A stretch of DNA of 64,000 nt, taken from assembly GCA_000756795.1 (NCBI GenBank), contig CCSI01000004.1, positions 62,001 to 126,000 of the forward strand, written 5' to 3'. Shown here in pieces: positions 5,360-61,826 of the stretch. A model generated the notes under the pieces. It saw only the letters and a list, made by a program, of their open reading frames with translations. It was not told the DNA's origin and did no database searches. The stretch's first letter is position 1; every line of letters starts with the position of its first letter. The DNA is from Qipengyuania vulgaris (GTDB lineage Bacteria; Pseudomonadota; Alphaproteobacteria; Sphingomonadales; Sphingomonadaceae). The position numbers and the translations under genes were made by a program.

Positions 5360-5459
5360 ATGTCCCAATCGGTAAAAGCAGGCGGACCACTCCTGGTCTC
5401 GTGTCCGCCTCCCCGAAACAAGAAACCCGCCCGGTCGTCCCACCGGGCGGGTTTTTGTT
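5360..5459 (+). ncRNA. Candidate small RNA with CTCC loop and strong terminator
   Basis: No gene is annotated in the 404 bases between the Nudix start and the grxD stop. The predicted plus-strand transcript contains hairpin GACCA-CTCC-TGGTC (5385-5398) inside a longer inverted repeat AGGCGGAC/GTCCGCCT (5380-5387 and 5403-5410). An exposed CCTCCCC follows at 5408-5414, then a perfect 13-bp terminator. CUCC loops that can pair with ribosome-binding sites are known in several alphaproteobacterial small-RNA families. Expression and ends are inferred, not seen. Confidence 0.4.
5423..5454. terminator. Strong intrinsic terminator, 13-bp perfect stem
   Basis: AAACCCGCCCGGT (5423-5435) pairs perfectly with ACCGGGCGGGTTT (5442-5454) around a 6-base loop. 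On the plus strand a TTTTTGTTT run ends it, which is better than the minus-strand tail, so it mainly serves a plus-strand transcript. It may also stop grxD transcription coming from the other side. Confidence 0.85.
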
Positions 5460-5490
5460 TGGGTAAGTATCCAGGTAGAGCGATGGAGAA

Positions 5491-28769: not shown

Positions 28770-29459
28770 ATGTTCGAAACTCTCACGCTGGCACTGATAC
28801 TCGTGCCTTGCCTCATCATCGCCATCGTCTTCCATGAGGTCGCGCATGGCTGGACCGCGCTGGCGCTTGGCGACACCACTGCGCGCGATATGGGGCGGTT
28901 GACGCTCAACCCCATCAAGCACGTCGACCCCGTCGGGACGCTGCTCGTGCCGGGCGCTTTGGCGCTGTTCGGCGGGCCGATTTTCGGCTGGGCCAAGCCT
29001 GTGCCGGTCAATGCGCGCAGGCTCGACAATCCGCGCTACGGCATGATGGCAGTCGCTGCCGCGGGGCCGGGGACGAATATCCTGCTCGCGCTCATCGGGG
29101 CGGTGGTGTTCGGCATCATTGCCGGCTTCACCATCAACTGGGGCGGGACGATACCCGAGTGGATGATGACGTCTTTCGCTTTCTTCATCCTCATCAACAC
29201 CTTCCTCGCGCTGTTCAACATGCTCCCCATTCCGCCGTTCGACGGCTCGCACATCGTCGGCGGATTGCTCCCACGCAGCTGGGCGGCGGGTTGGCAAAAG
29301 CTGCAGGCCATGGGCATGCTGCTCATCCTCGTGCTGATTGCAGCAACGTGGGCCTTCCCCGATGCGCGCTGGGTGGAGCGCGTTTTCTTCGGCCCGGTCA
29401 CGTGGCTCGTCGAGCAGTTCTACGAGGTCTCGCAAGCCGTCTCGCGGCTGATTGCATGA
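28770..29459 (+). CDS. Site-2 protease family (M50) membrane metalloprotease
   Basis: The 229-residue protein has the zinc motif HEVAHG at about residues 22-27 in the first membrane region and NMLPIPPFDGSH, the second metal-ligand Asp, near residue 155. It belongs to the short M50B group (Rv2869c-distinct, often called FpsC/YwhC-like). The start is ATG 28770. It is coupled to truB by ATGA. The substrate is unknown. Confidence 0.92.
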   Translation: MFETLTLALILVPCLIIAIVFHEVAHGWTALALGDTTARDMGRLTLNPIKHVDPVGTLLVPGALALFGGPIFGWAKPVPVNARRLDNPRYGMMAVAAAGPGTNILLALIGAVVFGIIAGFTINWGGTIPEWMMTSFAFFILINTFLALFNMLPIPPFDGSHIVGGLLPRSWAAGWQKLQAMGMLLILVLIAATWAFPDARWVERVFFGPVTWLVEQFYEVSQAVSRLIA

Positions 29460-30451
29460 CCGAGCGGACCAAACCCGCACCCCATGGCTGGCTGCTGCTC
29501 GACAAGCCGCGCGGGCTTGGCTCGACGCAGGCGGTCGGCCTGGTGAAGCGCGTGCTGAGGCAAGGCGGCTACAAGAAAACCAAGGTCGGGCATGGCGGCA
29601 CGCTCGACCCGCTGGCGGAAGGTGTGCTGCCCATCGCGCTGGGCGAGGCGACGAAGCTGGCCGGGCGGATGCTCGATGCGAGCAAGATCTACGACTTCAC
29701 GATATCCTTCGGGACGCAAACCGATACTCTCGATACCGAGGGTGAGGTGGTCGCCAGTTCCGACCACATGCCGACCGGTGAGGACATCGCGGCCATCCTG
29801 CCGCAGTTCACCGGTCCCATCGAGCAGGCCCCTCCCGCCTATTCCGCCATTAAGATCGACGGAAAGCGCGCCTATGACCGCGCGCGGGCGGGCGAGGACT
29901 TGGAGATGAAGCTGCGCGCGACGACCATCCATGAATTGACCATCCTCCCCGGTACGGGGAGGGGGACCGTCGAAGACGGTGGAGGGGATCCGCCACTACA
30001 TGCCGGGGATGGTCCCCCTCCCCCGGCGGGGGAGGATAGCGTCACCCTTCGCGCCCATGTCTCCAAAGGCACATACATCCGTTCGCTTGCACGGGACATC
30101 GCGCTGGCCCTTGGAAGCGTGGGCCACGTCACCTATCTCAGGCGCATCAAGGCTGGCCCTTTCGCCGAGGAACAGGCGATTTCGCTGGACTCGGCAGAGG
30201 AAATCGCTAAGGGCGCGCCAATCGAAAACCTTCTCCTGCCGCTAGAGGCCGGACTGGACGACATCCCGGTCCTCAACCTCGAACCCGACAGCGCGCAGGC
30301 GGTCCGCCAGGGCCGGGTATTGTCGGACCTGCCCCATAGCGACGGGCTCCACCTTGCGAAGCTGGGAGAAACCCCGGTGGCACTGATGGAACTCGAAGCT
30401 GGCTCGGCCAAGGTCGTGCGGGGTTTCAACCTACCGGATGTCGCGGAGTAA
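29456..30451 (+). CDS. truB: tRNA pseudouridine-55 synthase TruB with inserted element
   Basis: A 331-residue TruB with catalytic Asp51 in [12 protein letters not shown], the [17 protein letters not shown] segment and [13 protein letters not shown]. It makes pseudouridine 55 in the T loop. Between the strand ending ATTIHELTI and the strand starting [13 protein letters not shown] there are about 31 extra residues ([19 protein letters not shown] and following) that correspond exactly to a palindromic DNA element, still in frame. Whether the protein tolerates it is inferred from intact motifs on both sides. Confidence 0.94.
29943..30036. repeat. 94-bp palindromic element inserted inside truB
   Basis: The element is bounded by inverted TCCTCCCC (29943-29950) and GGGGAGGA (30029-30036). 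Internally GGGGGACC (29961-29968) pairs with GGTCCCCC (30011-30018), ACCGTC/GACGGT forms a hairpin, and CCTCCCC/GGGGAGG another. The CTCCCC...GGGGAGGGGGACC...GGTGGAGGGG style matches intergenic palindromic repeats common in sphingomonads and Caulobacter. Only this copy occurs in the window. Confidence 0.8.
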
Positions 30452-61778: not shown

Positions 61779-61826
61779 AGTTTCGACGCAAAACCATCCC
61801 CCGGATGGTTTTGTCGAGTCGAAACT
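61779..61826. terminator. Two-arm palindrome after the bd oxidase operon, touching tRNA-Val
   Basis: AGTTTCGAC (61779-61787) pairs with GTCGAAACT (61818-61826), and AAAACCATCC (61790-61799) pairs with GGATGGTTTT (61803-61812). It may terminate the oxidase operon on one strand and tRNA-Val transcription on the other. The outer arm ends in the last base of the tRNA's encoded CCA. Confidence 0.6.

Follow-up and report, generated by a model that had tools for sequence, protein, structure and literature searches.

An in-frame palindromic doublet in truB of Qipengyuania vulgaris, at a recurrent landing site of palindromic repeats, and a DUF559 protein as its likely mobiliser

Introduction

How does a long palindrome come to lie in frame within truB of Qipengyuania vulgaris, and what could have moved it there? 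The question arose from the 64-kb window, the whole stretch of DNA analysed here, in which the first-pass annotation had marked a 94-bp palindromic repeat (29943-30036) within the gene. Palindromic repeats inside genes have precedents. REPs were found in 2013 inside truB of S. maltophilia, Erythrobacter litoralis, and S. alaskensis (Di Nocera et al., PMC3733652), and also in dnaE2, recB, tRNA synthetase and pseudouridine synthase genes; the authors found no transposase that goes with CGTC repeats, and recB is their only case of a shared insertion site. The Rickettsia palindromic elements (RPEs; Ogata et al. 2000, 2002) measure about 100-150 bp and lie in frame within conserved genes, and the one RPE-bearing guanylate kinase that was tested was enzymatically active (PMC10969869, PMC2229807, PMC3733652). 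Furthermore, Coxiella QMITEs lie in frame in hypothetical ORFs (PMC5896051). REPINs are inverted doublets with a variable spacer, whose enzyme genes stand beside the repeats, different repeat classes going with different RAYTs (PMC3116915).

The element in truB and the encoded loop

The gene, the element and its parts are located as follows.

29456 to 30451, forward strand: truB, tRNA pseudouridine(55) synthase, an intact open reading frame of 331 aa
29942 to 30037, forward strand: type A palindromic element, a REPIN-like doublet of 96 bp in frame, recognised by its inverted arms, its fold, its genome matches and its absence from truB of the closest relative
29944 to 29962, forward strand: stem 1 of the left unit, CCTCCCCGGTACGGGGAGG, with seven pairs CCTCCCC/GGGGAGG identical in all 34 aligned units
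29966 to 29980, forward strand: stem 2 of the left unit, ACCGTC/GACGGT, which varies between copies with compensatory changes
29990 to 30007 (approximate limits), forward strand: spacer between the two inverted units; spacers differ even at one site across species
30008 to 30037, reverse strand: right unit, inverted, with a decayed second stem and the terminal stem CCTCCCCCG/CGGGGGAGG at 30017-30035

The arms of the inverted repeat (29942-29971 and 30008-30037) are 83% complementary. The palindrome of the first-pass annotation is thus real, but its ends have to be moved to 29942 and 30037, which gives 96 bp or 32 codons. Folded as RNA, it reaches -65.8 kcal/mol, whereas shuffled sequences average -49.2 (z -4.3), and none of 200 dinucleotide shuffles folds as low. 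In the comparative loop test described below, one of 200 shuffles of the whole truB loop (L009) was equally palindromic. A palindrome scan of the window ranked the truB palindrome third; the two stronger ones lie at 5413-5463 (terminator-like) and 61779-61826 (AGTTTCGAC...GTCGAAACT). The element unites traits of three kinds of repeats, having terminal inverted repeats like a MITE of a DDE insertion sequence, two inverted palindromic units and a spacer that form a single long hairpin like a REPIN, and an in-frame position within a conserved protein gene like a Rickettsia palindromic element.

The encoded protein matches the profiles TruB_N (PF01509) and TruB_C_2 (PF16198) as well as the equivalog TIGR00431, and the GGTLD motif, which presumably surrounds the catalytic Asp, is invariant in 30 of 30 aligned TruB sequences. 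In the AlphaFold model (mean pLDDT 84.7) the TruB fold is kept and the element-coded residues, about 163-194, are placed between the strands 154-163 and 195-202, in agreement with the position between two strands that had been proposed from the letters. Since residues 168-187 have a pLDDT below 50, what the element encodes is, according to this model, the disordered tip of a beta-hairpin.

A dispersed family of two-stem units

The first-pass annotation had advised counting genome copies, and a BLAST search of the 94 bp against the own genome (G000) returned 12 matches at seven loci, truB included, which excludes a chance palindrome. Judged by eye from the translations, one locus is truB itself and another an error-prone DNA polymerase gene; a third is a DUF559 cassette, which has a copy at either end, and the other four are intergenic. 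Altogether 14 of the 61 genomes searched contain matches, and 12 of these 14, G000 among them, belong to the genus.

Among 34 aligned type A units, which are about 46 nt long and read NATCCTCCCC...GGGGAGGGGGACC, the stem CCTCCCC/GGGGAGG is invariant. In the second stem (ACC.../...GGT), three of the six pairs are changed on both sides with pairing kept, in 12, 19 and 7 of the 34 units. The invariant stem together with the covarying second stem identifies the element as a doublet, in which a spacer separates two units with two stems each. None of the 34 aligned units has the GTAG consensus at its ends, and type A units do not show a CGTC tag beside an 8-9 bp stem starting with AT. Moreover, 25 of the 34 units are free of stops in all six frames (a count without composition control), and this should make survival inside genes easier. 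A sister type B (GGTGGCAG...CTGACGGAGGGG) forms hybrids with type A, namely doublets in which a type A unit is joined with a unit of type B (L006, L008, L054, L149, L157), which suggests that the units recombine or that one enzyme moves both.

Type A copies also lie in frame in other genes. In dnaE2 (NF004225), G000 (L082/L005, C1:943752-943883) and G021 have type A copies at one shared site that differ in their spacers, and the site is empty in G011, G012, G013, G014, G016 and G020, the relatives read there. These data come from seven parsed loops out of 11 loci, with G011 added; the unparsed G005 match, nearly as long as that of G000, is left out of the count. In trmD of G002 and G026 (L041, L052) type A copies occupy a single shared site, and glyS of G001 (L051) contains a further in-frame insertion. 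No target-site duplication was seen when filled and empty dnaE2 sites were aligned, loops that are too diverged for a firm statement.

Filled and empty truB sites in the genus

A truB match is present in 35 of the 37 genus genomes, and all 35 loops were read. In the closest relative G025, as well as in G012, G006, G032, G020, G033 and G011, the loop is short and measures 44 residues, compared with 69 in G000 by the same cut. In the presence/absence check proposed at the outset, the element is absent from the closest relative, and the matches elsewhere in the genome together with the element-free truB of close relatives establish the in-frame insertion of a dispersed palindromic element. Of the native loop sequence, about 18-21 nt (about 6 codons) are missing in G000, and the net gain relative to G025 is for this reason 25 residues, below the 32 inserted codons and also below the 31 extra residues that the first-pass annotation had counted. 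Direct alignment of filled and empty truB sites (five pairs) revealed no target-site duplication, the sites having diverged so far that trimming may have gone unseen. In most of the other genus genomes the native loop measures 71 and bears a conserved SAFATTAGRPDPYDPQAPLELAD extension.

The same loop has been entered more than once. Type A is found at the G000 position in G008 and G024 on a long-loop background; G014 and G018 have a different palindrome (HPREGGDP...), for which the close relative G016 is empty; and G004 has a third kind (RPELAEG...). In total, six of the 35 genus truB genes contain palindromic inserts.

The TruB hairpin tip in the bacterial family

The family was sampled evenly with 119 genomes from 96 genera, 118 of which have truB. 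The 114 loops read are those of G000 and G030, those of 60 loci at which the truB match was split in almost every case, and those of 52 out of 53 loci where it was unsplit or partial; G076, G082, G141 and the unparsed L281 of G080 lie outside this set. By inspection, palindromic inserts of at least five repeat families occur at the TruB hairpin tip in 34 of the 114 genomes, namely at 33 of the 60 mostly split-match loci and in G000, and none was assigned among the 52 other loci. The 33 inserts belong to the families A, H, P, M and C, to two unnamed palindrome families (L188, L211) and to one composite, all assigned by eye from DNA motifs and palindromes. In the composite (L215, truB of G128) two palindrome families, M and P, follow each other in one loop. 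In L170 (truB of G175) the GTYIR motif is lost from the frame after a C-type insert; the gene may be damaged, or this fragmented genome may be misassembled there.

Loop self-complementarity was compared with 200 dinucleotide shuffles at 91 of 95 loci (L026, L029, L170 and L192 left out). All 200 shuffles were beaten by 22 of the 37 assigned insert loops, by none of the 54 other loops and by none of 91 control windows of equal length taken from these genes. At a threshold of at most two shuffles as good, the numbers are 27 of 37, 0 of 54 and 0 of 91, and the remaining ten assigned loops had more than two of 200 shuffles equally palindromic. Since the assignment by eye used these very sequences, the test is not independent of it. 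In an earlier run (100 shuffles, 87 of 98 loci parsed), 25 loops and also one of 87 control windows (L021) had no shuffle as high. None of the 52 added family loops beat all 200 shuffles; the lowest, L297, had two of 200 as good in a loop without extra length. A count of insert families by regular expressions was too loose, since the motifs, mostly of P, also matched the rest of the gene in ten of 52 loci, and the family calls therefore rest on palindromicity and inspection.

On a TruB tree of 94 rows, a quick tree with many weak branches from which the insert columns were dropped and in which five unclear rows were uncounted, the distribution of each insert family is close to random (A 12 changes in 14 rows, P 6 in 6, H 4 in 4, M 4 in 4, C 6 in 7), with 28 changes of the family label in all. 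The presence or absence of an insert is clustered (17 changes versus a shuffled mean of 27.8), so that lineages differ in proneness or inherit inserts. Furthermore, the P and H insert sequences are dispersed repeats themselves, with 0-48 BLAST matches for P in seven genomes and 2-25 for H in six, counts in which palindromes can match both strands and for which only 40 candidates were scored in three genomes.

As a control, pnp (PNPase) gave a single match without an insert split in each of the 119 family genomes, apart from G175 (contig break) and from G072 and G127 (fragments). The class-wide TruB search matched 70 of 76 genomes, and with G000 and G150 set aside, the 68 genomes of other alphaproteobacterial families gave one unsplit match each and no insert-split one. 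In these families the G237 match stops before the loop, the largest computed net length excess is 18 residues (G216), and no insert was present in the four parsed loci, G216 included, out of seven fetched. The truB loop is a recurrent landing site for at least five palindrome families in this bacterial family.

A DUF559 gene between inverted palindromes

In G000, two inverted type A copies flank an ORF of 156 aa with a DUF559 domain (PF04480, E 3e-31). A PF04480 profile search in the 61 genomes gave a strong class of 39 loci, 37 of which have both flanks. At 33 of these 37 loci in the relatives, the inverted palindromic flanks scored above all 200 dinucleotide shuffles, the misses being L094, L124, L098 and L102. 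A strong DUF559 is present in 19 of the 76 genomes of a class-wide sample, counting G000. Of the 38 additional loci there, 29 (two of them from the same-family genome G150) were tested, and 24 of the 29 have inverted palindromic flanks of this kind. Together this amounts to 57 of 66 tested loci, the other nine being without significant palindromic flanks. The genus also contains a weaker-scoring core DUF559 paralogue, present in most of its genomes (e.g., L141, G000 C2:198495-198797), which serves as internal control and had palindromic flanks at none of 11 tested loci.

The type of the flanking palindrome, labelled by eye, follows the DUF559 clade, with ten label changes compared to 24.6 after shuffling and none of 200 shuffles as low. 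When the 37 loci of the relatives are grouped by the flanking ORFs that they share, only 15 site clusters result, so that this coupling is partly the inheritance of one site; the A/B clade spans five of them. At a carA-carB-like site the genus has type D and two further families have type F; at a pntAA-pntAB-like site G000 and G005 have type A, and type B is found in G025 and G028. One carA-carB-like gap is filled by cassettes of varying type in several alphaproteobacterial families (L095, L097, L099, L126, L100, L103, L104, L128), and further cassette gaps were read as trpB-trpA, recN-ligA, pntAA-pntAB and E2-lpd. The flanking names carA, carB, pntA, trpA, trpB, recN, ligA, accD, folC, ubiE, ubiB and guaB were recognised by eye from translations.

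The predicted DUF559 model (pLDDT 86.6) matches 3hrl, the domain of the homing endonuclease I-Bth0305I (3r3p) and Vsr (1vsr), and the residues D74, E85 and H91 are invariant in 34 sequences. For the Caulobacter DUF559 protein VsrA a role in mismatch repair has been proposed (PMC12907096). Type A matches without a type A DUF559 occur in G008 (nine matches) and G002 (three). The CGTC-like truB inserts H and M showed no link to any DUF559 in the genomes used here. A profile search for PF01797 (RAYT/IS200) found nothing in G000 and nothing in 23 of the 24 other genus genomes G001-G024, the exception being G022.

Discussion

Taken as a whole, we consider it probable that a type A doublet was inserted into truB, that it is tolerated there at a recurrent landing site, and that DUF559 is its likely mobiliser. 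A gene-less copy of the doublet entered truB, and about 18-21 nt of the native loop were replaced or trimmed in the process; DUF559 would nick or cut at the hairpins or at the target, whereupon the doublet would be copied in trans; and within genes only in-frame, stop-free insertions in tolerant loops would survive. The truB element presumably survives since its length is a multiple of three, it brings no stop, and it sits at a beta-hairpin tip where extra disordered residues leave the enzyme undisturbed. The position of the gene between two inverted type A units and its Vsr/homing-endonuclease fold make DUF559 the likely mobiliser, although no transposition event of type A was observed. Extended to the whole class, the idea that DUF559 proteins are dedicated mobilisers of a set of palindromic doublets in Alphaproteobacteria is more tentative, yet it deserves serious consideration. 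They would then be to these doublets what RAYTs are to REPINs, with a nuclease of the Vsr/homing-endonuclease type in the place of an HUH or DDE transposase, gene-less copies would write protein inserts, and the TruB hairpin tip would be especially tolerant.

One alternative, close to a doubt that the first-pass annotation had itself raised, is that the insert could be an old protein loop of biased composition that is merely palindrome-like. A native loop of similar length (SAFATTAGRPDPY...) is indeed common, occurring in most TruB proteins of the genus, but the nearest relatives of G000 are short-looped and thus provide empty sites, the fold has a z of -4.3, and among the 54 loops to which no insert was assigned, none beat all shuffles. 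The genome matches, the empty sites and the palindromicity test rule this reading out, and we give it practically no weight. Once an insertion is accepted, the recurrence at one place could be due to active targeting, with the elements recognising the truB site, for example through a tract (ATCCTC or GAGGAT) that corresponds to their own ends. This would agree with inserts starting at nearly the same residue in many species, with an ATCCTC in the native site of G025 that resembles the element end, and with the dnaE2 and trmD sites, each entered in two species. However, the families A, H, P, M and C share the truB site, which a sequence-specific target would not explain, and the conserved 27-aa extension beside it is uninterrupted in the loops read, as selection predicts. 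Targeting is therefore unlikely in our opinion, and we infer that tolerance rather than targeting makes truB a hot spot.

As to the enzyme, the architecture of an inverted palindromic doublet with spacer is the same as in the REPIN definition (PMC3116915), and would fit mobilisation by a RAYT, an HUH tyrosine transposase, as in Pseudomonas REPINs. Such a mobilisation is nevertheless very improbable here, because G000, G001, G002, G004, G005, G007, G008, G016, G021 and G024 have element matches but no PF01797, and the aligned type A units lack the GTAG tag; with PF01797 in G022 only, a RAYT as mobiliser was rejected for the genus genomes searched (G000-G024). A more substantial competitor is passive hitchhiking, in which another enzyme moves the palindromes and the DUF559 genes are tolerant or favoured neighbours whose flanking has no function. 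We regard it as possible, though on balance doubtful. DUF559 cassettes often lie in gaps between apparently conserved operon genes, which are possible repeat collectors, and type A elements exist in genomes without a type A DUF559. Against this stand the close inverted flanks on both sides at 57 of 66 loci, in the relatives and in other alphaproteobacterial families, compared with none of 11 for the core paralogue, and the palindrome type that follows the DUF559 clade, the A/B clade across five site clusters. The reading with DUF559 as mobiliser accounts for the element with the help of a partner whose role is predicted from its fold and position.

How does this compare with known systems? REPs within truB and dnaE2 have been on record since 2013 (PMC3733652), so that an insertion inside the gene is a further case of a known phenomenon. 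The statement of the first-pass annotation that the element is direct evidence of protein insertions in this group holds for the insertion, but not as a first instance, as a REP in truB of E. litoralis is already described in that report. The insert families H and M at the truB site fit the CGTC class of intragenic REPs (tag read by eye), whereas type A has neither the GTAG nor the CGTC tag and is linked to DUF559; moreover, one truB site is common to several families here, read in 114 genomes of one bacterial family. The parallel to Rickettsia drawn at the outset turned out closer than claimed, because truB of R. conorii itself carries RPE-1 (PMC3733652). In both cases in-frame palindromes occur in conserved genes, truB included, a likeness by description for which no shared ancestry is claimed; the element here differs by its GC-rich free-living host, its doublet of two-stem units and its DUF559 partner. 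With REPIN/RAYT systems it shares the inverted doublet with variable spacer, and the DUF559 gene stands between type A units as a RAYT does between REPs, but G000 is without an HUH/Y1 transposase and has the PD-(D/E)XK/Vsr-like DUF559 in that position, and there is no GTAG tag. Compared with Vsr and the EDxHD homing endonuclease I-Bth0305I, DUF559 has a similar predicted fold and invariant D, E and H, but it is a single small domain between palindromes with a predicted nuclease role. The hot-spot count and above all the partnership of DUF559 and palindromes appear to be new; a search by title or abstract opening, with subscription papers mostly outside its scope, gave no literature linking the two.

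A known enzyme for palindromic repeats without RAYT has been lacking so far, and for CGTC repeats PMC3733652 leaves this question open. A small nuclease gene between inverted repeat copies in many alphaproteobacterial families is a concrete and testable candidate for such a mobiliser. Furthermore, the TruB loop is a natural record of many in-frame insertions in one conserved enzyme, and thus the rules by which selfish DNA becomes protein are open to comparative study.
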